A stretch of DNA of 46,850 nt from a virus: positions 1 to 46,850 of the IMG/VR virus record IMGVR_UViG_3300046170_000045; one strand, given 5' to 3'. Made by a program: the position numbers and the translations under genes. The notes beneath the pieces are model-generated. The model ran no database searches. It saw only the letters and a list, made by a program, of their open reading frames with translations, and had not been told where the DNA came from. Positions 21,552 to 43,027 of this stretch are shown here, in pieces. How positions within the stretch are numbered: the stretch's first letter is position 1; the number at the start of each line of letters is the position of its first letter.

Positions 21552-21920
21552 TTAATAACTCCAGATATGTGGTCTTGGACGGCCTTTAGAGGATTCAAGG
21601 TCATCAATATGTATAAATCTTGTAGGGCCTTTCTGACTTACACCAATCCCAGTAAAGCCTGCCTCTAGAGCGCCCTGTACGAGCTTGTAAGCGGCTTCAC
21701 CACGCAACCCTATGTCTATGGCCCTACCCGATGCATGTGCGCCGGGAGAGGCTTTACGGGCCTCTATGGGGTGGTTAGCACAACGGTACGCAGAGTTAAC
21801 AGGGAAGCTAAATCCAAGCTTTTCACGTAGAGCATCTACTTTCTGCATGAACTCATCATTCATACCAGTTTCATTGCAGTGTCTGCATACTAATTCTTCT
21901 TCTGTGAAGTACTTATACAT
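21552..21920 (-). CDS. Endolysin, M15-type D-Ala-D-Ala peptidase domain
   Basis: 122 aa. Zinc ligands His62 and Asp69 (GAHASGRAIDIG) and His104 (FIHIDDL) match Peptidase M15/VanY-type fold; YRCANHP and RPHIWSY are also typical. Cleaves peptidoglycan cross-bridges. No signal sequence, so it needs the adjoining holin. The ATG at 21920 has GAGG at five-base spacing; a GTG two codons earlier overlaps that site. The first residues overlap the end of the 1609-aa gene by eight bases. Confidence 0.85.
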   Translation of the reverse strand: MYKYFTEEELVCRHCNETGMNDEFMQKVDALREKLGFSFPVNSAYRCANHPIEARKASPGAHASGRAIDIGLRGEAAYKLVQGALEAGFTGIGVSQKGPTRFIHIDDLESSKGRPRPHIWSY

Positions 21921-24900
21921 ATCCACCTCTTACAAACTTCTCACGCTTTGTAACGCCTTCAGGTAGTGAGGGCGTACCGTCTACTTCAATGTAGTCATAG
22001 AGCGGATGAGTCTTACCCTTTCCTGAAGTCTTAATCGTTCCAATTATATTACCCAGTTTAACTTCACCAACTGTTTCAGGCCGCAAGTTAGGACTCTTAA
22101 CTTTACCCTTTGGGTTTTTTGCGGTAAGAACATTCATTCTTACAGGCCCCACAAGCTGATAGTCTAAGGCGTAAAAATGACCGCCCTTAGATTTAGGGGC
22201 TTCTACAGAAACAATAGGATTATCTAAGCGTTTAGAACCTTCATCAGTAATAATCTCAAACTTCTCTGGCTGCAAAAGATTTGTCTGTACTCTAGGAGGA
22301 CTTTTCACGCCTGTATTTTTCTTATAGTTAGCCTTCATTTGAGCAATAGTTAGGTCTGTTCCGTCATATTCGTTGGCTCTAGCCACAGATTTATTGTTTT
22401 GACCAAATGTTGATAGTTTTTCAGAGGGCCTAGACGTTACATAAAGATTCTGAAATGTTTTATTGGAAACATCTTCTAGTTCTCTACCCATCTTTAAGTA
22501 CTTACCAAACTCAAGATCAACTTCAATACCAGCATCTTCGGCTTTCTTAGTAAGACCTTCTTTGTATGAACTCTTTTCAGGATCAAAGAACTTACCGGGA
22601 GCAGGCATAACACTAGAAGCTGTTTCACTGTCCATGGCCCTACCCATTCTAGGGTCTAAAGTTTCTTCAAGCTCCTCAGTCTGTGTCATTACTACAGGCT
22701 TGTCAGGGTCTTGTACGACACGTTTAGAGCCTTCCCTACCTACAGTCTTGGTAGGCGTGAACAACTCACGCAGACCTTTAGCGATAACAGTGCCACCCGG
22801 AACAAACCCAAGACGCTGTAAAGGATCTACCTCTCCACCGCCTGTAAAGCCTAGCCTGCGTAGAGGATCTTCCTCATCTACAAAAGCTGTACCAGCCTGT
22901 TGATCGTAGGGCAGACCTGTCATCTTGTCGATGCGCTGGTCAGGCTCTTTAGAGGCGTTAGGTACGTCAAGTACTTCACCGCCTTTGGCTTTGTTTTGTC
23001 TTTCTTCTTGCTCCTCTAACATTTTAAGGTAGGCATTAGAAGTCTCTACCCTACGACCAGTTTCTTTTTCAAACGATGAATACCTTAAACCTCTATCTAT
23101 AGAAGACTGAAAATCAGGTTTGTATAAAGAAGAACCGTTTCTTTTCTCAACAACCTCTTCTAAAGCTGCTACAAGCCCAGTAGTTCTAGAAACAACCATC
23201 TCTGGGTCTATAACTTTAAAAGCATTAACAGCTTCTGTTCTTATATTTTGTTTAGGACTTCTAGCTTTGTACAGACCCATAAGTAAATATGTTGCGGACT
23301 CGCTGCCCATTCCATTATCAATAAGAATATCTTTAGTATCTTGATAACCATATAAAGTTGCATGAGCATTAGCTATTCTAAATAACTCCTGTTGTCCTTC
23401 GTAAAGCTTGTCTTGTAGACCTTCAAACTCAGCAATATATTCTTCTTCAGAAGTTTCATTATCAAATATTTTCTGACCAACACTTCTTCCGATAGCATTA
23501 TAGTCTCTTAGTGCAAACTCTAAATTTAAATCAGGATCATAAGGATTACGGCGCATACCTGACACATTAGCTAGTAGTTCAGTTTCAGTTTTTCTAAAGT
23601 TATCACCAATTCTAGGCGGTGTTTTATTTATAGCCTCTACAAGCTTTAATCCAGATTTAATTGTGCCGGGAATAAACGTAGAGGCAGTTTCTGTGAATAT
23701 TTCATCTATATCAATAATCCCTCTTCGATATCTGCCTATAGACGTTAAAAGTTGATCAGTAATCATAGAGTCAGATACATAAGGCTCTAACAACTCATAA
23801 GTCATTTCTTGAACAGAATCTACTAAGACATCATTTAATTCTTCTCCTGAAACTTCTGCTGTAGCAAGCCTATCAGCTAGAATCATTGCAGGGCGTTTAA
23901 TGTATTCATAGGTATCTAAAAACTTAGTGTCTATAAAATACATTTCTCCATCATTATCTCTGCCCCAAATTTTATTTGATTTTTTGTAAAATGATCCTTC
24001 CGCTAAAATAGTATGTGCTTGCCTTTCTTCTTCTGTCCAGCCCATAGCATCAGCAGATTGTTTAGACGCTAAAGTAAATCCAGTAGTAGCCGCCATAAAA
24101 CCTGTAAGTCTTGCAAGTCCTCTTGCTCTTAAAACATTATTTCCAGAAGATAACTCATTAGCAGATTCTTTAAGAATGTTAATACTTGTCCTTGTTACTT
24201 CGGCAGGAAAAGAAACAAAGTTGCCAAAAGGCATATCTCTTATACCCTTTATACCCGGAGGAACCTTATCATAGTTTGGAAACGTATCTTTTACTTTACG
24301 CGCAGCGTCTGCTTTTAACAAATCCTCTGATACATCAGGAAATGCTTTTTTAAGAGCTGCTAATTCGTTTAAATAGTTACTTATTTTAAAAAAGTCATCA
24401 CTTGCTTGATAAACATTATTAGCAATCTCTACGCCTTTAGCTACAGAAGAATCCACACCCTCTAACCCCTTTATTGCTGGGTTGTATTTCAGGCTTCGTA
24501 AAGCTTTTAAAACTCTTGTAGGCTCTCTTTCAAAACCTATATCTAATAAAGCTCTAGACTCATTAACTTTAACGCTGGTGTTAATTACACCTAATCGCTG
24601 CATCTCTTGGTAAAAGTCATCTTTAGCTTTATCGCCACCCTTTGATAACTTATTTGCTATTACGCCTAAAGATTTAGTACTGAATGGATTAGCACCATTA
24701 GCTATAGCCATTTGAATACTGCCTAATGCGTTGCGGATATGAGCGCCATGATTAAGAATAGTTGCTGAACTTTGTGATAATCCCTTGAGGCTTGCGTATT
24801 CTTTAATCATAGTAGAACCCCAACCAAGACCTTCAGTCCAAAATGTAAATTCTTCTTGTTTTCTATCTAAAGCCTTTAACATTTCAGGGGTTGTGTATTT

Positions 24901-26742
24901 ACCATCTAATATTGAATTAGTGCCTTTAATCTGAGCAGTATTACGCTGAGATTCTTTAGATGTTAAATACCCTCCAGACTTACCAAGCTCATTAAACTGC
25001 CTGTAAAAGTTATTAACTTCATATACTCTAGAAGCTTTAGCAGTAGATATAATAAGAGCTTCAGGAGCTTCTCTTATTTCACCCATTAAAGCTCTGATAG
25101 GTTCAGGTATGTCTGTTTTCTTTTTAAACTTAGCAACCTTGCGAACCTGAGTAAGATAGTCAATTACTTTATTATCTTCTTTTAAACCCAGAACCTCATT
25201 AACTCTTGTTCTAGCTTGATCAAAAGCCGCATCAATATCTATATCAGGCGTTTGCTCTAGAATATCATCAACTAAATATTGCACAGCATTTTCTTTAACA
25301 ACATTGTCAGGCTCGTAAAGAGGATCTTCGTATAGCCTGTATGACCTACGCATGTAACTACCTACGTTAGAACGTATAGAATTTTTAGCTTCCTGTTTAA
25401 AACCTTTGCTTCCTATAATCTTATAAGATAAATCATCCATAAGCTTTCTAGCTTCAGCTACGTCTCTAGCAATGTTTTCAGGTAAGTTATACTTAGTAGC
25501 AAAAAACTCAAAACGCTCATCCATAGGCATCTCATATACAATAGAGGCATCAGACGTTAAAGCTTCTTGAACACGCTCTGGAATACCTTTAAGTTTATCA
25601 ATGTCTGCTTTTGGAAAAGCTCCTTGTTCTGAAGCTTCTACAATACGCCTCATATTTACCGTAAGCCTGTTAGCTATGTCTTCAGCTTGAGTAATTGTTT
25701 GTCTTTGTGCGTACTGTGAGTCTCTAAAAGCATTGTAAGATTTAGGAGTAAAGTAACCTCTAGAAGTAAGAAATCTTCCGTACACTCTACTTGCAGGAGA
25801 GTACACATACTTTTCAAAAGTTGTTCCTCTGCTGCTTTGTCGCTCTATCTGTTTAATTCCTTCAGGAGTTTCTGTAAGAGCCTCTTTCTTTGTAGGTATT
25901 TCTGGAGTAGCATCACTAGCTACAGCAGCTACTCTTTCACTAGGGGTTAATTGTGGGGCTTCTTTTATACCCATACCTAATCGCCTAGCTTCTTTAGAAG
26001 CGTCACTAAGACTTATATCGTTTCTAATTTCTTTGAAATATCTTAATGCTATCTCTGTTTCTTCGGCTATGTCTAAATCAAATAACTTCTTACCTGATTC
26101 ATTTAGAAATCTTCCTACAGCCTTACTACTAATAATACCTGTCTCAATTAACGCGCCAAAACCTATGTCTTGGATAACCATTTTTAACCTTGCTTCTGCT
26201 TCAGAGTCATCTTTGTCAGCAGCCATAAAATCAACAACAACATTATTAGAAGCTTCAGGAAACTCTTGTTCAATAATATTAAATATGTTTTGATAGGGAT
26301 CAGACAAGGCTTGTTCAGTAGCTATTGTTGCTAGTGTAGTGCGTTTAAAACCTTCTTTCATCCCCAAAGCACCTAAGCCTTTAGCGGCTCCTGCAAAGCC
26401 TGCAACATAAGGAGACATTTCTACTGCAATCTGACCTGCTTGACCGGGAAATGTTTCAGCTTCAAGAAGCTCACCTTCTTCATCGTATATTTCTGCGTCA
26501 GCAAGACCTAAAGCTCCAGAAACACTTTCAGTTACCTGCCTAGTAAGCTTTCTCCTTTCTTCTATATCTTCTTCAGTAGGATCTTCAAGCTCATCAAAAC
26601 CTGAAGCTCTTAGAGGAATGTTTGCCAAGTCTCTTCCTACATCAACAGCTTTAAAAAGAAAAGGACTTACTACTTCCTCATTGTAAGTACCAAGGATTCT
26701 AGCAAGTTCATCTTTGTAAGATGTTTCTTCTTTAACTGTCAT
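21913..26742 (-). CDS. Very large internal virion (ejection) protein, 1609 aa
   Basis: The longest gene here, at the place of T7 gp16, so probably part of the inner core that is ejected and spans the cell envelope. Mostly helical and charged, with a hydrophobic Gly/Ala segment (MSPYVAGFAGAAKGLGALGM) near residue 105-125. Around residues 1245-1320 Gly-rich linkers carry repeats (DPLRRLGFTGGGEV, DPLQRLGFVPGGTV). A separate C-terminal part of about 290 residues follows, ending VRGGYV. I see no transglycosylase motif, unlike T7 gp16. The ATG at 26742 is inside the end of the previous gene. Confidence 0.8.
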   Translation of the reverse strand: MTVKEETSYKDELARILGTYNEEVVSPFLFKAVDVGRDLANIPLRASGFDELEDPTEEDIEERRKLTRQVTESVSGALGLADAEIYDEEGELLEAETFPGQAGQIAVEMSPYVAGFAGAAKGLGALGMKEGFKRTTLATIATEQALSDPYQNIFNIIEQEFPEASNNVVVDFMAADKDDSEAEARLKMVIQDIGFGALIETGIISSKAVGRFLNESGKKLFDLDIAEETEIALRYFKEIRNDISLSDASKEARRLGMGIKEAPQLTPSERVAAVASDATPEIPTKKEALTETPEGIKQIERQSSRGTTFEKYVYSPASRVYGRFLTSRGYFTPKSYNAFRDSQYAQRQTITQAEDIANRLTVNMRRIVEASEQGAFPKADIDKLKGIPERVQEALTSDASIVYEMPMDERFEFFATKYNLPENIARDVAEARKLMDDLSYKIIGSKGFKQEAKNSIRSNVGSYMRRSYRLYEDPLYEPDNVVKENAVQYLVDDILEQTPDIDIDAAFDQARTRVNEVLGLKEDNKVIDYLTQVRKVAKFKKKTDIPEPIRALMGEIREAPEALIISTAKASRVYEVNNFYRQFNELGKSGGYLTSKESQRNTAQIKGTNSILDGKYTTPEMLKALDRKQEEFTFWTEGLGWGSTMIKEYASLKGLSQSSATILNHGAHIRNALGSIQMAIANGANPFSTKSLGVIANKLSKGGDKAKDDFYQEMQRLGVINTSVKVNESRALLDIGFEREPTRVLKALRSLKYNPAIKGLEGVDSSVAKGVEIANNVYQASDDFFKISNYLNELAALKKAFPDVSEDLLKADAARKVKDTFPNYDKVPPGIKGIRDMPFGNFVSFPAEVTRTSINILKESANELSSGNNVLRARGLARLTGFMAATTGFTLASKQSADAMGWTEEERQAHTILAEGSFYKKSNKIWGRDNDGEMYFIDTKFLDTYEYIKRPAMILADRLATAEVSGEELNDVLVDSVQEMTYELLEPYVSDSMITDQLLTSIGRYRRGIIDIDEIFTETASTFIPGTIKSGLKLVEAINKTPPRIGDNFRKTETELLANVSGMRRNPYDPDLNLEFALRDYNAIGRSVGQKIFDNETSEEEYIAEFEGLQDKLYEGQQELFRIANAHATLYGYQDTKDILIDNGMGSESATYLLMGLYKARSPKQNIRTEAVNAFKVIDPEMVVSRTTGLVAALEEVVEKRNGSSLYKPDFQSSIDRGLRYSSFEKETGRRVETSNAYLKMLEEQEERQNKAKGGEVLDVPNASKEPDQRIDKMTGLPYDQQAGTAFVDEEDPLRRLGFTGGGEVDPLQRLGFVPGGTVIAKGLRELFTPTKTVGREGSKRVVQDPDKPVVMTQTEELEETLDPRMGRAMDSETASSVMPAPGKFFDPEKSSYKEGLTKKAEDAGIEVDLEFGKYLKMGRELEDVSNKTFQNLYVTSRPSEKLSTFGQNNKSVARANEYDGTDLTIAQMKANYKKNTGVKSPPRVQTNLLQPEKFEIITDEGSKRLDNPIVSVEAPKSKGGHFYALDYQLVGPVRMNVLTAKNPKGKVKSPNLRPETVGEVKLGNIIGTIKTSGKGKTHPLYDYIEVDGTPSLPEGVTKREKFVRGGYV

Positions 26743-28060
26743 CGTAAGCAGCACCTACTTGGCCTAACTCTGTAACATATTGAACCATAATCTTATTAGC
26801 TTCCTCCTCCTGATCATTATCTATAAGTATATTATACCTATCCAATAATTCTATTGCTTTTTTACTAGATCTCCAAGTAATTTGTCCTGCATTTAATGTG
26901 TCTCTTTCAAGAGGTTGTTTTAAATTATTTGCGTCAGAAACCATTGCTGACCATAAATCAACTGCTGCATTATATTTCTGTATTGAGTCTATAAGTAAAG
27001 GTGCGCGAATAAGAGTTGGATCAGTGCCTTCTGGTGCATTATTCCTGTCTTCATCTGTAACAAATTGATTTCTTAAAGTATCAACAAACTCTGCATATTT
27101 GGTTGCCGTAAGAGAAACACGCGCCTCTCTAAGCGGATTAAAATCATTATTGTATTTTCTTGCAGCAGCCCTATTCAAAGCTTTGGGATCATTAAGTTCA
27201 AGAAGACCTGTTGTACTTACTCCTTCTTGTTTACCAGTTCCTCTATTTATTTTAGACTCAATAGTAACTGCCCTTGTAACGTCATCTGCACCTTTAACAA
27301 GCTTAACATCATATTTAGTTTCAATATCAGGATCTAAAGTCTCCATGTCTTCTAAACTAAAAGCAGCAGAAAGACTACCTAGTTGTTGATAAGATTGCTG
27401 TAACTTAGAAAGTCTAGAGCCTTCCTCTGAGTTTAAAAGTCCACCGATACGGCTTTGTTCTAAAGCTTGTAAAGTTTCTTGTTCAAAGTCTCTTTTTTTA
27501 AATACGCTACCAAAAAAAGCTTCAGCAGCACTTTTAGGATTTTTGTTGTATGTTTTTAAAGCTTCTTCTAAATTTCCTGATACATTATATTCTTGCTGAA
27601 ACTTTAAGCCATCCCTGTAGCTTTGTAATGCTCTATCTCTGTATGTTTGTGCTTTTGTTCTAAAATTAGCGTCGTGTCTTCCTGCTTTTATTTGGGCGAC
27701 CATCTCTTCATCATCCGCAAAATCAATCAAGGCCCTTTCCTTAGCCAAGCGTATACCTTCATCAAGAAAGTAATTACTATCGTTTTTACCTGAAGAAGTA
27801 ATTAAAGATGTATATTGATCAGTACGGGCATTAGCGCTCTTTGCTTTTTGTTCTTGAAGACGCATATCCATAATAGGCTTACTGTTAAAGAAATCTTGCT
27901 GCTTCTTTTGTAAATTACTTCTATACAGCCCAATACCTACAGTACCTGCAAGTCCTAACAGCGCATTACGTTCCTCACGCCTACGAAGCTTTCTAGCTTG
28001 ATCTTCATCACGCTTACGTTTTTCAGATAATAGGGATTCCCCAAGTTGTTCAATAGCCAT
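26732..28060 (-). CDS. Helical internal virion protein (442 aa)
   Basis: Starts MAIEQLGESLLSEKRKRDED with a basic stretch (RKLRRREERN), then one hydrophobic patch (LLGLAGTVGIGLYRS) and long helices. Size and order fit a T7 gp14/gp15-type core protein that forms the DNA ejection channel with its neighbours. No clear enzymatic motif. Ends 11 bases into the 1609-aa gene. Confidence 0.75.
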   Translation of the reverse strand: MAIEQLGESLLSEKRKRDEDQARKLRRREERNALLGLAGTVGIGLYRSNLQKKQQDFFNSKPIMDMRLQEQKAKSANARTDQYTSLITSSGKNDSNYFLDEGIRLAKERALIDFADDEEMVAQIKAGRHDANFRTKAQTYRDRALQSYRDGLKFQQEYNVSGNLEEALKTYNKNPKSAAEAFFGSVFKKRDFEQETLQALEQSRIGGLLNSEEGSRLSKLQQSYQQLGSLSAAFSLEDMETLDPDIETKYDVKLVKGADDVTRAVTIESKINRGTGKQEGVSTTGLLELNDPKALNRAAARKYNNDFNPLREARVSLTATKYAEFVDTLRNQFVTDEDRNNAPEGTDPTLIRAPLLIDSIQKYNAAVDLWSAMVSDANNLKQPLERDTLNAGQITWRSSKKAIELLDRYNILIDNDQEEEANKIMVQYVTELGQVGAAYDDS

Positions 28061-28061
28061 A

Positions 28062-28619
28062 TTATTGCCTCTGCATTAAACTAGGTGGCGGTGCTTCCTG
28101 TGGCGGTGGACGAGCCATTAAAGACTCAGTAGGACGTTCAGGAAGCTCTGCTGCCTCTACACGATCCATAGCCATTTGAGTCTCATCAGAAAGTTCTGAA
28201 GGCTGTGAAAGCTCTGGACGCTGTACAGTTACGCCAAACATATCCTCTTCATCATCCTCCTGTACCACATACTCAATACCTGCACGTTCTGCAAGTCCCA
28301 TGATCATATAGGCTACAGGCTCAACAAGAAGAAGCATCAAGTCAGGATTAAACTGACCTTCATTGAAGCCTGAGAAAAGAATAAGGCGAGTGGCCTCCAT
28401 TATGGTTGTGCCTTCTATAAGACTGTCCATCAAAGGAAGATAATTTTCTTCTGCCGTCATCTGATCAAATATAAAATCTATTGCTTCTTGTGCAACAGTA
28501 AACTCTGTAGCGCCTGTATACGGCTCTTGTACATCAGGATCTAGCGTTAATGACTCACCCGGAATAGGGCGTGTCATCTTTGCAAAGTGTTCCTGTAGTT
28601 CTGGTGTAGTATCATCCAT
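28062..28619 (-). CDS. Acidic virion-region protein (185 aa)
   Basis: Acidic; helical middle (EFTVAQEAIDFIFDQMTAEE; LLLVEPVAYMIMGLAERAGI) and a Pro-rich C-terminus (RPPPQEAPPPSLMQRQ). Lies between internal virion genes and its start overlaps the previous stop by one base. It could be an assembly chaperone or minor head protein; not recognised. Confidence 0.7.
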   Translation of the reverse strand: MDDTTPELQEHFAKMTRPIPGESLTLDPDVQEPYTGATEFTVAQEAIDFIFDQMTAEENYLPLMDSLIEGTTIMEATRLILFSGFNEGQFNPDLMLLLVEPVAYMIMGLAERAGIEYVVQEDDEEDMFGVTVQRPELSQPSELSDETQMAMDRVEAAELPERPTESLMARPPPQEAPPPSLMQRQ

Positions 28620-29677
28620 TATGATATACCTCTAGCCATTTGTGGATTAAAGGGATCAAACATAAACTGCTGACCCCAAGCAGATAAGGGTGCGTTGTAA
28701 GTTGCTGGAGCTTGAAAACCTTGAATAGGTGCTACAGTATTTTGCATAGTGTAAGCTTGGAAAGCTCCGGGATCTTGATATTGTCCTAGATTAATAACTT
28801 CTCCACTCGCAAGAGCAGCTTGTTGTGCTACAAAGTCTTGTTCTTGTTGCACAGAAGAAAATGCACCTATAGCAGCTTTAGTAGCTGTAAAAGGATCTGA
28901 TAAAGCTTCTCTCTTTTCAGTAAGCATCTCACCTGTCCTTGTTTGAATTTCTTCAGCACCACGCTCTAAAAAATTACCTCTTTGCTGATCATAGTATGCT
29001 GAATCAGGAAGAGTTGGATCAGGACTCATAATACTGGTGTCTACAAGTGGATCAGAAGGGCTAGATAATAAATTGCTTTCAGGTTTAACTGTCTCTTGAA
29101 CAACTGTTTCTACAGGGGCTGTTGTATCTATAGTCGGTGCATCAGCAATTTCTCCTGCTACCTTTGCAACAGCTTCATCTGTAAAAGGAGATTTAAAAGC
29201 TTTACCAACTCTACCCGCAGCACTATCAGCACCAAAGAAAAAGTTTTCAGCAGCGCCTTGAGCAAAAGTACTGTTAGGTGCAATCTTACTTAAAGCAGTC
29301 TTGGAAAACTCTGTAAGAGTACTAGTCACTCCCTTAGTAACAGAAGAAAATACCTTTCCGGGCATAGAGGCTACTTTACCTGCGAACTGTAAAACTTTAC
29401 CAGCGCCTTGAAGTAGTGCGCTACTTGATCCTAACAAGCCTGTTCCTGCGGATGTAGCAGTGCCTGCCGCTCCTACTAAGCTTGACATGCCTGTAACGCC
29501 TTGAAGACCCAGCGCACTTCCTAAGCCACTAGCCAAAGCATTGCCTATCCCCGGAAGAATAAACATCATAGCTACTTGACCAAGTATGCCAATCTTGCCC
29601 ATGAATTTACCAAATTTGCTAAAAGCTTTTTTAATGCCCCTACCAATCTTTTTAAATACTTTTCTTAAAAATCCCAT
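28619..29677 (-). CDS. Internal virion protein with amphipathic N-terminus (352 aa)
   Basis: The first 35 residues are extremely basic and amphipathic (MGFLRKVFKKIGRGIKKAFS), followed by a hydrophobic glycine-rich stretch (GQVAMMFILPGIGNALASGL). This is the profile of a membrane-active ejection protein. The rest is Ala/Gly/Ser-rich and low complexity. Sits beside the 1014-aa repeat protein, and both probably belong to the inner core. Confidence 0.75.
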   Translation of the reverse strand: MGFLRKVFKKIGRGIKKAFSKFGKFMGKIGILGQVAMMFILPGIGNALASGLGSALGLQGVTGMSSLVGAAGTATSAGTGLLGSSSALLQGAGKVLQFAGKVASMPGKVFSSVTKGVTSTLTEFSKTALSKIAPNSTFAQGAAENFFFGADSAAGRVGKAFKSPFTDEAVAKVAGEIADAPTIDTTAPVETVVQETVKPESNLLSSPSDPLVDTSIMSPDPTLPDSAYYDQQRGNFLERGAEEIQTRTGEMLTEKREALSDPFTATKAAIGAFSSVQQEQDFVAQQAALASGEVINLGQYQDPGAFQAYTMQNTVAPIQGFQAPATYNAPLSAWGQQFMFDPFNPQMARGIS

Positions 29678-29685
29678 ACTATTTC

Positions 29686-32600
29686 CTATAATCTTTTAAA
29701 GAACGATTCTGCTAGACTCATAAGCGTTGAAGTGTTACTACTACCTTTCTCAGCAGCAGAGTCATTAGCAAGCGCCGTAGCATAAAGTGTAGCCTTACGC
29801 TGCTGATCATTCTCATACGCCTGTCTTACATAGGCAGCTTCATCTCTAAGGTTCTGCCACAAGAAAGACTGCTCTGCTGAATTAAGATTAAAAGCCATCT
29901 GTGCGTTTTGTTGATTAGCCGCATTAATAGCTGCGCTGTTTATCGTATTAGACTTTCTGCGCCATTCTACATTTGATTGCTCTACGGCCTGTTTGTTAGC
30001 AGCATTCCACTGATCACGTTGGAAGTCTATCTGTGCATTAAACTGATTTACTTGATTCTTGATTGTCGCATTAGCTTTGTTAACTTCTAAAATATTATTA
30101 GCATTTATAGCAGAAGCTTTATTCTTTTCTGAAGTATTAAACTGCTTCATAGAGTTTGATTGACTAGCATTAAACTGAGACATCTGTGCGCCAAGACTAG
30201 CCATAAACTGATCTGCTTGGTTTTGTGAAGCAGCATTAAACTGTTTAGCAGCGTTTGTAGCTGATTGATCTGAAAGAATACGCTGCTGCTTTAGCTGCTG
30301 ATCAAGAACTGTGGCTTGTTGTCTGTTGTTAAGATTAGCCATATCCATCTGTAAAAAGCTTTGAGCATTCACAATAGCCACTTTAGTACGTGCATCTGCA
30401 TTAGCCATATCCATAGCCGCCATAGCTGTAGCATTCTGCATAGCTGCCTGTTGATTGGCATTGAAGTCTGCCATTGTCATAGACTGCATAAACTTACTGT
30501 TTGTTAATTCTATTTGTTGTGCAGCGTTAAACTTAGTTAAGTCTACGTTAGCAACCATAGCTGCATTCTGTACTGCACGTTGCTGATCTACATTAAGCTG
30601 TGCAACATTCATCTGTTGGGCAAGGTTGGCTTGCAACAGATTAGTCTGCATACGAGTATTAAGATTAGCTAACTCAGTCTGCTGGGCTGCATTAAGATTA
30701 TCGGCTGCTGCTTGATTCTGAGCAGAAAGATTCGCAAGCCTCATCTGCTGATCATTGCTTAGATTAGCAAGCTCCATCTGTTGTTTAAAACCAGCATTCC
30801 TTGCTAAGAAATCTGCTGCAACATTCATTTCTGCAAGACGTTCTTGATTCTGAGCAGTCATATTTTCACGTTGTGTAGCATCTTCTATTTGAAGATTAGC
30901 AAGCTCCATTTGCTGCTCATTACCTAAGTTTTGAGCATTAGTAGCTTGTTGATTCTGTGCGTTTAATACGGCTGCTTGCTGTCTATTTTGTAAGTTTTGA
31001 GTACGTGTCTGCTGTTGCTGCTGTGCAGTAGTTAGTACAGCCTGCTGACTAAATTGACTTTGCATCGTAGCCATTTGCTGTGCATTAGCAGCGGTCTGTG
31101 AAGCTGCTGTCTGTCTGTTAGATAAGTTAGCCATACGTCGCTGCATGTCTTGTGTAGACTGTGCAAGATTAGCCTGTTGCTCATTGCTTAGGTTCTGTGC
31201 AGCACGTTGCTGTAGAGCCTGTGCGTTGCTCTGAGCCATTGGAAGCGCACTTTGTATGATTGCATTAAACAGTGCGTCACGGCCCACTGTAGAGGCTGAG
31301 AGGCCCCTCTGAGCTAAGTTAGCTTCAATAGCTGCTACTGCTGGTCTAGCCCATGCAGGAGTCTTACCATCCTCCATACCACCTAATAGTGTTTCCATTT
31401 GAGAAGATACAAGAGCCTCTGTAGGCAATGCTGCAATAGCTGCACGTACTTCTACAGGTTGATCATCAATCTGTGCTTCTACAGTTGCAGGATCTTCTAC
31501 AATGGCTGCTGTAATAGTAGGCGGTAAGTCGCCAACCTCTGCAATCATAGAGGCTGCTGCACCTTTTGCAGCTTCACCTTTTACTTTACGTCTTTGTGCA
31601 GCTTCATAACCTACAGTGCCTATAATCTGTGCAGCATTTCCATCATCTGCTTTAACTCCAGTAATAGCTTCACGTTGCTTAGCCTCTGCTTCGCGTGTAG
31701 GAGCAACATCTGTAGTCTGACCAGTAACTTTATTTACATAAGCACCATCAGAAATATCAAAGTCTTGCTCTTCTGCCATTGCTGCTGCTTCTTGTGCAGT
31801 GTCACGTTGAGCCGCTGTAGCCCTTTCAGTAAGTGTGGCTTGTGCTGCTTCTGCCTGCGCTTCAGGGCTTAATGTGCCTTGTGCAGCTTTTGTAGGATCT
31901 AGATCTTCTGTTTTAACAGCAGTATAAGTATCAGCTTTTGCTGCTCTTTTTGCAGCGCCCGTAGGTACTTTTGCTTTAGTTGTTTTAGCAGTTTGCGCTT
32001 TAACTTTAGGAGCTTTACCAACTGTTGAAGCTTTTACATCTTTTTGAGCACGTATCTGCTCTGCATCCCCCAGTGCAGTACCCTCTAGATCTACATCTTC
32101 TGTTTCTACTTCATCAATCTCAAAAAGATCTGGAGGTGTTATTTCTACCTGTGGAGGCCCATCAGTACTCATATTGTTTCCTCCACCTGTATTACTTCCG
32201 CTGCCTGCACCTGTATTAGCTCCATCACTACCACCATCAGTATTTGCTGCTCCACCTGTTCTTTCTCTTGCAGCCTGTCTAGCCTCCCAATCTTTTAATG
32301 CTTTTTCATAGGCTTGTTTTTCAGAACGTGCCTTACCACCACCCGTAGCAGTTCCAAAATCACTTCTTACAGGCTTCGGATCAAAGTCTTCTGCTGTTTG
32401 AGTTGGAGCAGTTGTTGTAGCTGGAGTAGGTGTAACATCAATACTTCCTGTGTCTCTTGTAGGAGCAGCTTCTACGCTTTGTGGAGGAGCTTGTCCTACC
32501 GTGACAGAACCCCCGCCTTCTCCTGAAGGTTGCGTTGTTGTAGGTTGAGAAGGTGCTTGTTGGCTGGCGGCAGCTTGTGCCTCTACCATGCGTTTAACTT

Positions 32601-32730
32601 CTTCATCAGTCATATCAAATCTAATATTACTCAAGCCATCATAAGCTTTTAAACGCCCACCATTAGCTCTCTTCTGTCGAAGTGCTTTCAAGACTTTCTT
32701 ATTGTTCCTATTTTTTCTTTTATTACTCAT
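29686..32730 (-). CDS. Giant 11-residue-repeat coiled-coil virion protein (1014 aa)
   Basis: Start chosen at the ATG at 32730 after AGGA; earlier in-frame codons translate a Cys-rich nonsense stretch. Order: basic head with RANGGRLKAYDGLS, a long low-complexity Pro/Thr/Ala part (to about residue 330), a helical domain, then residues 502-952 made of 41 consecutive 11-residue repeats, mostly with Asn first and Gln-Gln near position 6-7 (for example NLSNDQQMRLA, NLNAAQQTELA, NAQIDFQRDQW). No break in register was found. The C-terminal 62 residues are ordinary helix. By position it is an internal virion or tail-core protein; the repeat predicts a very long right-handed coil or tube. Confidence 0.85.
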   Translation of the reverse strand: MSNKRKNRNNKKVLKALRQKRANGGRLKAYDGLSNIRFDMTDEEVKRMVEAQAAASQQAPSQPTTTQPSGEGGGSVTVGQAPPQSVEAAPTRDTGSIDVTPTPATTTAPTQTAEDFDPKPVRSDFGTATGGGKARSEKQAYEKALKDWEARQAARERTGGAANTDGGSDGANTGAGSGSNTGGGNNMSTDGPPQVEITPPDLFEIDEVETEDVDLEGTALGDAEQIRAQKDVKASTVGKAPKVKAQTAKTTKAKVPTGAAKRAAKADTYTAVKTEDLDPTKAAQGTLSPEAQAEAAQATLTERATAAQRDTAQEAAAMAEEQDFDISDGAYVNKVTGQTTDVAPTREAEAKQREAITGVKADDGNAAQIIGTVGYEAAQRRKVKGEAAKGAAASMIAEVGDLPPTITAAIVEDPATVEAQIDDQPVEVRAAIAALPTEALVSSQMETLLGGMEDGKTPAWARPAVAAIEANLAQRGLSASTVGRDALFNAIIQSALPMAQSNAQALQQRAAQNLSNEQQANLAQSTQDMQRRMANLSNRQTAASQTAANAQQMATMQSQFSQQAVLTTAQQQQQTRTQNLQNRQQAAVLNAQNQQATNAQNLGNEQQMELANLQIEDATQRENMTAQNQERLAEMNVAADFLARNAGFKQQMELANLSNDQQMRLANLSAQNQAAADNLNAAQQTELANLNTRMQTNLLQANLAQQMNVAQLNVDQQRAVQNAAMVANVDLTKFNAAQQIELTNSKFMQSMTMADFNANQQAAMQNATAMAAMDMANADARTKVAIVNAQSFLQMDMANLNNRQQATVLDQQLKQQRILSDQSATNAAKQFNAASQNQADQFMASLGAQMSQFNASQSNSMKQFNTSEKNKASAINANNILEVNKANATIKNQVNQFNAQIDFQRDQWNAANKQAVEQSNVEWRRKSNTINSAAINAANQQNAQMAFNLNSAEQSFLWQNLRDEAAYVRQAYENDQQRKATLYATALANDSAAEKGSSNTSTLMSLAESFFKRL
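29875..31227 (-). repeat. 41 tandem 33-bp (11-codon) degenerate repeats
   Basis: Each unit is 11 codons; the first is NAQALQQRAAQ and the last NAQMAFNLNSA. Asn opens 28 of 41 units, with Gln, Asp, Thr, Lys, Met or Glu in the rest. DNA identity between units is low, so the repeat is old and held by selection on protein structure, not by recent duplication. Confidence 0.85.
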
Positions 32731-33239: not shown

Positions 33240-36200
33240 CTATGATTCTAGTCGGACTCTTGTGGTTAGTGCAGTTACTGAGCCGTTAGTTCTTGAACTG
33301 CTTTGACTAGCGGGAATAACGAACATCTCGCGGGATACTTGCTGTACGCCGTATTGATCTTCTTTCCACCCACCAAAATCTGATACGCCAGCAGCGTCTA
33401 ATGCAGCTTTTACCTCTTGTGCGATAAAGTTGTGCATAGTGACTTCGGTATCCATCTGATTAATGATGTCGCCGTTTTCATCTTCTTCACGGAGATGTGC
33501 TAGTTGGGCATCTGATGAATCAAGCTCACCATTCGCTTTCCAGTTGTATTTAACTGTTCTCAAGTCATTAATAAACGATAGCCCAAGCGTTTGATCCGCT
33601 ACGTTTTTCTTTAGTCGCAGATCTGATGAACGTGACCAGTTAGCATCTGCATTAAAATCATTAGTGACAACATTGCTAGCTTTACCAAAAGAAAAATCGT
33701 TGGAATTTACCGTAAATCCCGCTCCAATCGCGATTCCGTTTGTAACTGATTCGCTACTTGGATCAACAGATTGACCAATAATTACGTTGTTGTTTCCGCT
33801 GATTAGCGCATCTCCTGCGGCATATCCAATCATGGTATTTTCATAACCTGTGGTAATGGAACTACCTGTTAGACCGCCCACGATGGTGTTACGGGATCCC
33901 GTGGTGACTGCCGCCGCTGCGGAGTAACCGACGGCTACGTTGTAGTTGTCTGTGGTGGTTGTGAAGTTTTGTGCGTTTAGGGCGTAATTACCAATTGCAA
34001 CAGCACGATCACCTTTTGTATCTGCACCTAAAGCACTTCTACCTAGCGCAACATTATTGTTGCCTACTGTCAAAGCATCACCTGCAAGTCCTCCAATGAG
34101 GGTATTGTCTACTCCCGTGGTGACTAATGCGCCTGCATCATATCCAACAGCCACATTGTAGGAAGTAGTCGCAGTAGTGAAGTTTTGGACTCGTAAAGCC
34201 CTAAAACCAACTGCAGTAGATCCACTACCTAACGTGTCACCACCCAGAGCGTTTTTGCCAATTGCCACATTTTCATCAGCATCTGTAAGAGCATCACCTG
34301 CTAGGCCACCAATAAGAGTGTTGTTAACTCCCGTGGTGATTGCATTCCCTGCACCATGACCTACAGCGACGTTGTAAACATCGGTGCTTGTAGTGAAGTT
34401 TTGTGTGGATAAAGACGCTGAACCAATCGCTACGTTCCGGTCACCTTTAGTATCAGTGGTAAGTGCGTTGTAACCCACTGCTACATTATTGTTGCCCTCG
34501 GTTAGGGCATCGCCAGCAAGACCGCCGAGAAGCGTGTTAACTGTGCCAAAGGTGACTGCTACACCAGCTTGAAACCCAACTGCCGTGTTAAAAGTATCTG
34601 TAGCAGTAGTAAAGTTTTGTGATCCTAAAGCGTTGTAACCAACTGCGACAGTTTTACTGCCAAGCGTGTCATCAGTTAAGGCTGATCTACCTAGCGCAAC
34701 ATTGAAATCTGCGTCTGTTAAAGCATCACCAGCAAGACCGCCAAGTATGGTGTTGCTCACTCCCGTGGTGACTGCTGTGCCTGCCTGATAACCAACCGCC
34801 GTATTGTGAGAATCAGTGGCGGTAGTAAAGTTTTGAGTTCCTAATGCACGTTGACCTAAAGCGGTCGATTTACTGCCTTGCGTATCTGTTGATAGAGCTA
34901 AATATCCCAGTGCCACATTGTCATCTGCGTCAGTCAGGGCATCACCTGCTAACGCTCCCACTAAGGTATTCTGAAGTCCCGTGGTGACTGCGGCTCCTGC
35001 ACTCCTTCCGACTGCTACGTTGTATGAGTTTGTGGCTGTGGTGAAATTTTGAGCAGTAAGTGCTTGATAACCTACTGCTACGCTATTTTGTCCAGCAACA
35101 TCTGTGCTTAATGCTTCATAACCTATTGCTACATCATTGTTTCCTGTAGTTTTGGCATCACCCGCTAATGCCCCAATCAGCGTGTTGCCAATGCCAGTCG
35201 TGACTGAGGTTCCAGCCTGAATTCCAACCGCTACGTTGAGTCCATTGGCACCAGCATCAAGGGTTTTAAGTGCCCTATATCCGATTGCTACGTTTTGACC
35301 GTGACCGTCTTCTGTTTGCAGTGCCTGATAGCCCACAGCAACATTTGAATCACCAGTGCTGATAGCAGCGCCAGCAGAGTCACCGACCAGTGTGTTTGTA
35401 TTACCACCAGAGGCGATAGATGCGCCTGCGCCATCTCCAATACGGACGTTGGATGTGCCTGCGGATGCGGTTATTAGATCTGCGCCTGTGCCAATCTGCA
35501 CTTGATCGTTTCCAGCATCGACCTTTAGAGCATCTGTCACTCCGTTACTTTCAACACGAAAGTCTAAGTCTTTACTTCCTTCGTTAACGACAGTTTCGGT
35601 AGCATTCATTTCAAGACGAGAATTAACTTGTCCATTCTTAGCTGCTGCTATTTGAAAAAGACCGTCCTCTGAACCATCACTAGTGTTTACTATTTGTGCT
35701 TGAATTCTTCCGTAGGTAACGTCTTCACCAGCATCATTTTCTCCTTGAAAAAGCAAGCGACCAAGTATGTCACTGGCTGCTGGCGAACTAGAGTCACGAT
35801 CAAAAAGAATTATAGGCCCAACATTTTCATCCGCATCTGTAGAACGGACAGTAAGCGCAGTTGAGTTATCAGTAACCGTTATCGTAGCACCAGCAGAAGA
35901 TGTAATAGCACCATCTACTTGCAGCGTAGAAGCCATATCCACAGCACCATCAATATCCACGACATCAAGGTTAGTAGTGCCGTCAACGTCAATATCACCT
36001 GAAATGTCCAGCGTAGCTGCATCTAATTCACCAGTAATCGTAAAGTTACGAATGCCTGTGTAGTCTTTGTTAGAATCAAGTATAACGGCTTTAGAAGCTA
36101 CAGCAGTACCTACAGCAGTGCTTCCTAAGTCTAAGGCATTTAGTTCACCCAGTACGGCTGTAATACCATCTAAGGTATTAATCTCAGCCGCTGTGACTGT

Positions 36201-37553
36201 TACGCCATCAAGGATGTTAAGCTCTGCTGCTGTTGAAGTTACAGCCGTTCCATTTATAGATAGTGCATCAGTTTCAAGAGTTCCGTCTATATCTACATCA
36301 CCTGAAATATCTAAAGTAGCTGCATCTAGTTCGCCTGTGATTGTCAGGTTGCGAATGCCAGTATAGTCTTTGTTTGCATCTAGGATTACAGCTTTAGAAG
36401 CAATAGCAGTACCTACTGCGGTGCTACCAAGGTCTAGTGCATTAAGTTCTCCTACAACTGCTGTAATGCCATCTAGAGCGTTTAACTCAGCAGCCGTACT
36501 AGTTACACCGTCTAAGATGTTAAGCTCTGCTGCGGTGCTTGTAACACCATCTAAGATATTTAGTTCTGCTGCTGTAGAAGTAACCGTTGTGCCGTTAATA
36601 GATAGTGCATCAGTCTCCAACGTACCGTCAATGTCGGCATTGCCTGATATGTCCAGTGAACCTGCATCTAACTCTCCAGTAAGTGTAATGTTTCTAAAGC
36701 TTGCTACGTCTTTGTTAGAGTCTACTGTTACAACTTTATCAGCTACTACAGTTCCTGTGGACTGTCCAGTATCACTATAATTAAGTTCTGTTGCTGTTGC
36801 TGTGACACCATCTAAGATGTTAAGCTCTGCTGCTGTACTGGTTACGGCTGTACCATTGATAGATAGAGCATCTGTCTCTAACGTACCATCAATATCAGCA
36901 TCTCCAGAAATGTCAAGAGATCCTGCATCTAGTTCCCCGGTTAGGGTAATGTTACGGAAGCTGGCTACATCTTTATTAGCATCTGCTGTAACTACTTTAC
37001 TAGCTACTACTACACCTACAGCAGCGCCAGTGTCGGTGTAATTAAGTTCTGTTGTAGTGGCTGTAACACCATCAAGAAGATTAATTTCTGCTGCGGTAGA
37101 CGTTACACCGTCCATAATATTTAGTTCAGCAGCCGTAGCTGTGATAGCAGTGCCGTTAAAGTTTATAGCATCTGCGTGAACTGTGCCATCAAAATAACCG
37201 TCTTTAAATTCTAGTGAAGACGTACCTAGGTCTATGTCATTATCTGTGACAGGAACAATAGCACCGTCCTGTACACGTACTTGCTCAACCGCACTACTAG
37301 ATACTTCTACAAAGAAACCTACTCTATTGTTTGTGCCATCTACTACAACCTTGTTAAGAAAGTCTAAGTCACCAATCTGAGGCACGTTACCGCCTTGTCC
37401 AGCAGTTCCATCATGCCTGTGACCTGTGCTAGAAGCACTAGATGAAGAGTATGCAAAAGCATTTACTAGTTGGTTATATTCGTTATTAAATAAAGCTGCT
37501 GTAACAGTATCACCATCTGCAAAAGAACTTTGTCTTGTATAATTCTGAGCCAT
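33240..37553 (-). CDS. Tail fiber/spike (1437 aa) with YadA-like repeats and S74 chaperone
   Basis: N-terminus MAQNYTRQSSFADGDTVTAA is a typical phage fiber attachment segment. Residues about 130-520 hold repeats of GELDA-LDISG-D-DIDGT and STAAELNILDGV. Residues about 730-1265 hold NVAVGYQAL-type repeats like the YadA head beta-roll, six of them in 72-residue units. The C-terminus is a Peptidase S74 intramolecular chaperone with Ser1310 and Lys1315 (SDLRLKKNV), which cuts itself off after trimer folding. It should bind the host surface. Downstream of tail tube genes; GGAG before the ATG. Confidence 0.9.
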   Translation of the reverse strand: MAQNYTRQSSFADGDTVTAALFNNEYNQLVNAFAYSSSSASSTGHRHDGTAGQGGNVPQIGDLDFLNKVVVDGTNNRVGFFVEVSSSAVEQVRVQDGAIVPVTDNDIDLGTSSLEFKDGYFDGTVHADAINFNGTAITATAAELNIMDGVTSTAAEINLLDGVTATTTELNYTDTGAAVGVVVASKVVTADANKDVASFRNITLTGELDAGSLDISGDADIDGTLETDALSINGTAVTSTAAELNILDGVTATATELNYSDTGQSTGTVVADKVVTVDSNKDVASFRNITLTGELDAGSLDISGNADIDGTLETDALSINGTTVTSTAAELNILDGVTSTAAELNILDGVTSTAAELNALDGITAVVGELNALDLGSTAVGTAIASKAVILDANKDYTGIRNLTITGELDAATLDISGDVDIDGTLETDALSINGTAVTSTAAELNILDGVTVTAAEINTLDGITAVLGELNALDLGSTAVGTAVASKAVILDSNKDYTGIRNFTITGELDAATLDISGDIDVDGTTNLDVVDIDGAVDMASTLQVDGAITSSAGATITVTDNSTALTVRSTDADENVGPIILFDRDSSSPAASDILGRLLFQGENDAGEDVTYGRIQAQIVNTSDGSEDGLFQIAAAKNGQVNSRLEMNATETVVNEGSKDLDFRVESNGVTDALKVDAGNDQVQIGTGADLITASAGTSNVRIGDGAGASIASGGNTNTLVGDSAGAAISTGDSNVAVGYQALQTEDGHGQNVAIGYRALKTLDAGANGLNVAVGIQAGTSVTTGIGNTLIGALAGDAKTTGNNDVAIGYEALSTDVAGQNSVAVGYQALTAQNFTTATNSYNVAVGRSAGAAVTTGLQNTLVGALAGDALTDADDNVALGYLALSTDTQGSKSTALGQRALGTQNFTTATDSHNTAVGYQAGTAVTTGVSNTILGGLAGDALTDADFNVALGRSALTDDTLGSKTVAVGYNALGSQNFTTATDTFNTAVGFQAGVAVTFGTVNTLLGGLAGDALTEGNNNVAVGYNALTTDTKGDRNVAIGSASLSTQNFTTSTDVYNVAVGHGAGNAITTGVNNTLIGGLAGDALTDADENVAIGKNALGGDTLGSGSTAVGFRALRVQNFTTATTSYNVAVGYDAGALVTTGVDNTLIGGLAGDALTVGNNNVALGRSALGADTKGDRAVAIGNYALNAQNFTTTTDNYNVAVGYSAAAAVTTGSRNTIVGGLTGSSITTGYENTMIGYAAGDALISGNNNVIIGQSVDPSSESVTNGIAIGAGFTVNSNDFSFGKASNVVTNDFNADANWSRSSDLRLKKNVADQTLGLSFINDLRTVKYNWKANGELDSSDAQLAHLREEDENGDIINQMDTEVTMHNFIAQEVKAALDAAGVSDFGGWKEDQYGVQQVSREMFVIPASQSSSRTNGSVTALTTRVRLES
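33964..35259 (-). repeat. Six 216-bp repeats in the fiber gene (72 residues each)
   Basis: The AAGTTTTG word (QNFTT on the protein) recurs at 33964, 34180, 34396, 34612, 34828 and 35044 (as AAATTTTG in the last), exactly 216 bases apart. Units contain QNFTTATD, NVAVGYQAG, AVTTG, LAGDALTDAD and NVALGRSAL. Repeat number could change by recombination and so alter fiber length. Confidence 0.85.
36000..37130 (-). repeat. Long repeats in the N-terminal half of the fiber gene
   Basis: The GELDA segment occurs four times (near 36021, 36323, 36663 and 36923 on the plus strand). Each copy is followed by LDISG-D-D-DGT, and three also have LETDALSINGT and several STAAELNILDGV blocks. The spacing varies (about 300, 340, 260 bases) because AAELN blocks are present in differing numbers, which points to past unequal recombination. 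Confidence 0.8.
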
Positions 37554-42565: not shown

Positions 42566-43027
42566 TTATCGAAGGCTGGGCATCCTGTTGGCTCCCATCA
42601 TAAGCTTCTCAATTTCTTCTTTGGTCTTGCTCATTCCGGGATCTTCTTCATCCATCATTCCACCTTCAGCCATCATTACACCGCCATCATAAGCACGTTC
42701 AGCATCATCCATCATTGTTTGAAGCTGATCCGCACCAATCTGGTCGGTCGCTTTTTTGGTAAATACAAACTCACCATCGCTTAAACGCGCAGGTATAGAG
42801 TCTGATACACCAGTTCCGGGGCCGTCTACTTCGCCAGCACCCGAAAATTCTGAAGCAGTTGCAATTACTTTATCTAAGATGTCTGATAAGCGATCATCAT
42901 CTTGTAACGCACCTGCTAAATACATTTGTTCTTCGTCGTTAAGGGATTCATCCATAACGTACTTAATATAATCTTCTTCCATCTCATCGTCTGGAAGTTG
43001 TGAAGGCCAGTGCTTCATCCATTTCAT
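42566..43027 (-). CDS. Late protein, second half of a probable frameshift fusion (153 aa ORF)
   Basis: Contains GEVDGPGTGVSDSIPARLSD and GEFVFTKKATDQIGADQLQT, a motif set I recall in many marine phage virion-region proteins, and an acidic, Met/Gly-rich end (GGVMMAEGGMMDEEDPG). The first ATG at 43027 has no good ribosome site. The first ten residues (MKWMKHWPSQ) are an odd lead-in, whereas a +1 shift from the preceding gene would give DEALASQLPDDEMEEDY. So this is probably the C-terminal part of one protein with 42984-43826. Confidence 0.75.
   Translation of the reverse strand: MKWMKHWPSQLPDDEMEEDYIKYVMDESLNDEEQMYLAGALQDDDRLSDILDKVIATASEFSGAGEVDGPGTGVSDSIPARLSDGEFVFTKKATDQIGADQLQTMMDDAERAYDGGVMMAEGGMMDEEDPGMSKTKEEIEKLMMGANRMPSLR

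Follow-up and report, generated by a model that had tools for sequence, protein, structure and literature searches.

Described systems resembling the array

In phiX174 the DNA pilot protein H (PDB 4JPP) forms a tube with Asn, Gln and Arg facing its lumen, and it contains three Gln-rich 11-residue repeats, or hendecads (QKELTKMQLDN etc.) (PMC7354561). Here we analysed a viral DNA of 46,850 nucleotides (IMG/VR record IMGVR_UViG_3300046170_000045, referred to below as the window) that encodes a protein with an array of 42 hendecads. The likeness to H lies in long, Gln/Asn-rich α-helices with hendecads, predicted in the array, which in H serve genome delivery. H differs in having only three hendecads combined with heptads over about 121 residues (17 nm), as a decamer that handles ssDNA in a tailless virion, whereas the array has no heptads and belongs to a dsDNA podophage. 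When hhalign was forced to align the array with H, the best stretch fell on the H hendecads, with an E value of 0.05 for this single comparison and a probability of 1%, which is not significant. That alignment pairs array positions 7 and 3 with columns 1 and 8 of H, both Gln, and column 1 would be lumen-facing, judging by the inward residues listed for the H heptads. By analogy, the H tube may be regarded as the nearest mechanistic counterpart of the array; homology by sequence is not supported.

Repeats of 11 residues, in numbers that vary, also occur in the tape measure proteins of siphophages and prophages (PMC3271669). These proteins resemble the array in this variable unit count, in their association with the virion and in being probably helical. 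They differ in carrying W/F markers and in fixing the length of a long tail, whereas the array has Asn/Gln markers, comes from a short-tailed phage and exceeds the tail in length. With the ejectosome of T7 and PhiM1 (gp14, gp15 and gp16) the locus shares an arrangement of consecutive late genes for several internal proteins (presumed to be so here), the giant one last (PMC8954989, PMC11440229). Comparison by hhalign of the array protein and its 352-aa, 442-aa and 1613-aa neighbours with T7 gp14, gp15 and gp16 detected no similarity, and the hendecad model described below gives the T7 proteins scores of about 0. A further likeness, to the large polyvalent proteins, for which packaging, and injection along with the DNA, has been predicted (PMC5512222), concerns the 1613-aa neighbour and not the array protein. 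True homologues at the same position of the gene cassette are found in HMO-2011-type phages, which count among the ocean's most abundant viruses (PMC9038755): phage1322_25, HTVC115P gp47, CHOED_013, phiM6_25 and MQM1_018. These are annotated as hypothetical, and their arrays have about 15 to 32 units compared with the 42 of the window.

The array gene and its protein

The gene and the parts of its product that are referred to below are as follows.

29686..32730, minus strand: hendecad-protein gene, 1014 aa, with its ATG at 32730 and its stop ending at 29686
32811, minus strand: alternative upstream TTG start of the same gene, the reading frame also being open
31549..32730, minus strand: N-terminal region, residues 1-394, Pro/Gly/Thr/Gln-rich and poorly conserved
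31240..31548, minus strand: conserved pre-array helical domain, residues 395-497, from alignments and AF2
29875..31227, minus strand: 41-unit hendecad array, residues 502-952, mapped exactly onto the ORF
29854..31239, minus strand: the array as extended by the hendecad model, residues 498-959, 42 units
30337..31227, minus strand: units 1-27, residues 502-798, with a two-sided pattern
29875..30336, minus strand: units 28-41, residues 799-952, with one main hydrophobic face and a QFNA motif
29956..29964, minus strand: WRR motif, residues 923-925, the downstream anchor for the length test

Of the 394 residues in the N-terminal region, 20 are Pro and 38 are Gly, and the region varies strongly in length among relatives. 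The pre-array domain, which AF2 models as short helices with pLDDT of about 60-75, ends in a RGLSAS...SALPMAQ motif that served as our upstream anchor.

Periodicity of the array

An earlier note on this DNA had read 29875-31227 as 41 unbroken 11-residue units, and direct division of the ORF translation gave exactly this: residues 502-952 fall into 41 gap-free 11-mers, a repetition far above chance. The note was also correct that Asn opens most units (29/41 at position 1) and that Gln-Gln is frequent at positions 6-7, with Gln at position 6 in 20/41 units, at position 7 in 25/41 and at both in 16/41. Its placing of Leu/Met/Ala at positions 2, 9 and 10 held for 2 and 10 and failed for 9, which is polar or charged and has one of these residues in 9/41 units; the hydrophobic/Ala positions are 2, 4, 8, 10 and 11. 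An 11-residue peak, which the note had expected of a periodicity analysis, is present. Self-identity of the array is 0.21-0.28 at multiples of 11 compared with roughly 0.07-0.14 at other lags, and over relatives it is about 0.20-0.24 at multiples of 11 (lags 11 to 88), the remaining lags averaging 0.098 with a maximum of 0.132. With a position-specific hendecad model the array scored 296, while 30 shuffles of it reached at most 16 and seven other proteins of the window scored 0. The model extends the array to 42 units and finds no register break.

A weak 22-residue alternation is seen in the first two thirds of the array and is gone from the last third; within residues 502-798 this super-period reflects alternating unit types, NLSNxQQxxLA and NAxxxLxMDMA. 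A 22-residue quantum of length was considered and rejected: odd unit offsets occur (-1, -11, -13, -17, -23, -25, +3).

Eleven residues make three helical turns, hence the faces of such a helix run straight along the rod. The wheel order on an 11/3 helix is 11-4-8, 1-5-9, 2-6-10, 3-7. Units 1-27 have hydrophobic/Ala residues at 2, 10 and 4, 8, Gln at 3, 6 and 7 and Asn at 1, and units 28-41 have Phe/Ile/Leu at position 11. Position 5 is both the most charged and the most variable, followed by position 9, and the most conserved positions are 6, 2, 1 and 7. A Fourier test of the array for a hydrophobic period of 3.67 residues, which the coil of the earlier note should show, was negative: the 3/11 share of hydrophobic harmonic power is 0.00 over the whole array (0.06, 0.03 and 0.21 by thirds), the power being concentrated in the 5/11 and 4/11 harmonics. 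The near-straight coil of the earlier note is thus retained as a straight-faced 11/3 helix and not supported as a conventional coil. Nor is its buried Asn ladder supported, since Asn at position 1 adjoins the charged, variable positions 5 and 9 on the wheel and the 3/11 hydrophobic share is nil. Gln is biased to the side of the wheel opposite the charges (p 0.04) and the hydrophobic residues show a two-face pattern (p about 0.02-0.09), both weak statistics with only 11 positions; these patterns are suggestive, not decisive.

Evidence for a continuous helix

The arrays of 55 non-redundant members, pooled to 23,709 residues, include four Pro and no Cys, and 1.1% of their residues are Gly, as a continuous helix would lead one to expect. 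The composition is rich in A/Q/M/L, and Chou-Fasman propensities place helix above sheet. An AF2 run on residues 395-1014 as a monomer, with 36 sequences from the window and IMG/VR, returned helix throughout and no strand, including helices of 139 and 157 residues. Confidence was modest, with pLDDT of about 80 in the C-terminal 157-residue helix (residues 836-992), which includes most of units 28-41, and about 45 in the middle of the array. Because Pro and Cys are all but absent and AF2 predicts helix only, the array is most likely a continuous α-helix in exact rotational phase. If fully helical it would be about 68 nm long, at 1.65 nm per unit, within the 65-70 nm that had been estimated beforehand. 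A Foldseek search of BFVD with the array model returned its own family and weak helical matches; the length and neighbours of one family entry, W8FPS3, suggest that it is the CHOED protein.

Distribution and length of the array

We identified homologues by TBLASTN in 25-27 annotated phages, where nearly all are labelled hypothetical or are unannotated. They comprise HMO-2011, Pelagibacter phages HTVC103P/104P/115P/033P, Roseobacter CRP phages, Vibrio phage CHOED, Aeromonas phage MQM1, Pseudoalteromonas phage Slicky01, Sinorhizobium phage phiM6 and Rhizobium phages. In MW202701.1 (Caudoviricetes sp., Manatee Spring) the homologous region is labelled 'huntingtin', presumably a misannotation of a Gln-rich sequence. 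With IMG/VR scans included, the homologous ORFs number 231 in all, and a scan of genome contigs, the sole non-viral collection scanned, added four phage-like contigs in metagenome bins. Searches of Pfam, PHROGs and NCBIfam with the window protein and divergent members returned nothing (Pfam DUF5411 fell below the cut-off), and PDB profile and sequence searches gave chance matches only, in keeping with the earlier description of the protein as new-looking.

We counted array length in residues from one anchor, the Pro of the conserved LPxA motif that precedes the array, to another, the Trp of the WRR motif close to where the array ends. In every homologue with both anchors (210/210) this distance is 8 mod 11, as a net distance, from which compensating small indels between the anchors would escape detection. 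The lengths fall into 16 classes spanning 12.7 to 58.7 units between anchors, whereas the N- and C-terminal segments of these homologues have lengths spread over all 11 residue classes. At least 18 length changes are required on a FastTree phylogeny of the pre-array domain. If any length were allowed, the chance of all being multiples of 11 would be about (1/11)^18, a value that overstates the case since unit-wise recombination would favour whole-unit steps. Viterbi paths place register shifts solely near the array end. The lack of net non-multiple indels across such divergence points to selection at work. The largest arrays, with 58.7 units between anchors, occur at two loci from our set, L077 and L078, the latter encoding a protein of 1814 aa; if fully helical, the longest relatives would form a rod of over 97 nm.

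Gene neighbourhood

Upstream of the array gene and in the same direction lie genes that match PHROGs for portal/head-tail adaptor, major head protein, tail protein, amidase and tail spike. The array gene opens a conserved cassette that continues with four further genes.

28619..29677, minus strand: 352-aa neighbour, cationic and amphipathic at its N-terminus (MGFLRKVFKKIGRGIKKAFSKFGKFMGK...)
28062..28619, minus strand: 185-aa acidic neighbour with a PIPGxSLTxDP... motif
26732..28060, minus strand: 442-aa neighbour whose N-terminus is conserved and basic, with a short hydrophobic segment after it (LLGLAGTVGIGLY)
21913..26754, minus strand: 1613-aa giant protein, last in the cassette, characterised by an AF2 model and BFVD matches

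All cassette genes are annotated as hypothetical, and their order is kept in 11 isolates, downstream of the head and tail genes. The first neighbour varies, being absent in HMO-2011, and some Pelagibacter phages have insertions. The 352-aa protein, likely membrane-active by its N-terminal sequence, has 72 related ORFs in the fetched loci and was not found in HMO-2011 or phiM6. The 185-aa protein is the best-conserved cassette member apart from the array, with 76 related ORFs in the fetched loci; though conserved group-wide, it matched no family in the databases. The AF2 model of the 1613-aa protein matched large polyvalent-protein-associated domain proteins in BFVD (E down to 4e-17 for a named match), whereas Foldseek in the PDB gave chance matches only and no Pfam polyvalent domain was found by sequence. 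Because of this gene context and the polyvalent-like giant neighbour, the array gene is considered to lie in a likely ejection cassette, which agrees with the setting among ejection proteins proposed earlier, and we infer that the array protein is present in virions.

A gene labelled toxin-activating lysine acyltransferase or putative acyltransferase adjoins or lies near the array gene in two phages, as HTVC115P gp46 (L081:13537-13986) and CRP-738 gp29 (L089:4421-4876). The enzyme might acylate a cassette protein.

Proposed function of the array protein

We see roughly an even chance that the array protein is an ejection or pilot protein of HMO-2011-type podophages whose copies re-pack as a conduit or bundle. 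The two-sided faces of the first two thirds (11/4/8 and 2/10) would allow several copies to pack side by side, with the charged, variable positions 5 and 9 outward and the Gln-rich positions 3 and 7 on the opposite side. Copies stored in the head would exit via the short tail together with the neighbours of 352, 185, 442 and 1613 aa, and would then re-pack across the envelope into a conduit or bundle of parallel helices that presents an amide-rich face to the DNA inside, much as phiX174 H does. Since 11 residues make three turns and the faces are straight, only a change of length by whole units keeps the two parts of the rod from being rotated against each other. The length rule suggests that the sides of the rod must stay aligned along a long assembly, probably one that aids the push of DNA into the host. 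It is also testable, in that over the 210 homologues it implies that the protein should tolerate an indel of 11 residues but fail with one of a length not divisible by 11.

While the phase-locking is well supported and a continuous helix is strongly indicated, lateral packing, ejection and contact with DNA are more conjectural, as is a tube. A straight rod of this length would be longer than any Gram-negative envelope is wide, and a full-length parallel tube would overshoot it, which argues against a simple tube; bundles or partly folded-back assemblies are possible. We treat as doubtful the more specific proposal of a giant modular Gln/Asn-lined DNA conduit of 13-59 or more units, built in 1.65 nm steps and convergent with the H tube. 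If true, such an amide-lined tube would be a second, independent conduit of the phiX174 type and would provide a natural length series in which the effect of conduit length could be studied.

Copies could instead form an internal core or scaffold-like bundle, on the portal or around the DNA in the head, which would organise the genome and not itself be the transmembrane conduit. The gene context and helical rod would be shared by such a bundle, T7-like ejection proteins also build a core in the head (PMC11440229), and bundles would accommodate rods of 22 to over 97 nm more readily than structures matched to an envelope would. We nevertheless consider a core unlikely: we saw none of the canonical features of a scaffold, the neighbours resemble ejected or injected proteins, and exact phase-locking across hundreds of residues exceeds what a loose core would need.

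A different explanation would attribute the whole-unit changes to unequal recombination between repeats alone, with no structural constraint. Steps of 33 bp are possible in principle, and the DNA repeats within the array are spaced almost all by multiples of 33. These copies are ungapped and 61-90% alike, too diverged for Tandem Repeats Finder, which detected no DNA array at the hendecad coding region, and slippage is for these reasons not an obvious present cause. As zero net non-multiple indels in 210 diverged homologues requires purifying selection whatever the source of mutation, recombination as the whole explanation is improbable.

The earlier note had also raised a ruler, and a tape-measure-like array setting the virion or envelope-spanning length at 1.65 nm per unit would share with siphophage tape measures a variation in 11-residue repeats (PMC3271669), here by whole units. 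Such a role is disfavoured, and we hold it to be very improbable. The tail is short, in MQM1 9.2 nm (PMC10410586) compared with about 34 nm for the array of this phage if helical. Between the same anchors the array varies more than fourfold (12.7-58.7 units), its length is uncorrelated with that of the giant protein in 11 phages (Spearman 0.43, p 0.19), and the W/F marker of tape measures is absent in units 1-27, F being found at position 11 solely in units 28-41.

Dimeric or trimeric coiled coils require a single hydrophobic stripe, and the near-zero 3/11 hydrophobic moment over the whole array is at odds with an external shaft of this kind, that is, a hendecad coiled coil belonging to the upstream tail fibres. 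Tail spike and fibre genes do neighbour the array gene, but no receptor-binding-like domain was found after the array and the cassette continues into putatively membrane-active and giant proteins, so that we give a fibre shaft very little credence. Least credible is a β-solenoid in which each unit forms an 11-residue coil and Asn/Gln make up a ladder on the outside, which would fit the alternating hydrophobics (2, 4 and 8, 10), the 2.2-residue peak and the variation by whole coils known of solenoids, but not the near-zero Pro, 1.1% Gly, A/Q/M/L-rich composition, Chou-Fasman preference for helix or strand-free AF2 model.

Other features of the window

The tail-spike gene (33240-37553) contains a tandem repeat at 36482-37098 with a 39-bp unit and a 261-bp period, at 75-76% matches. 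Between the portal and head protein genes, a 153-aa ORF (42566-43027) shows weak PHROG matches to tape measure proteins and is possibly a coiled-coil scaffold.
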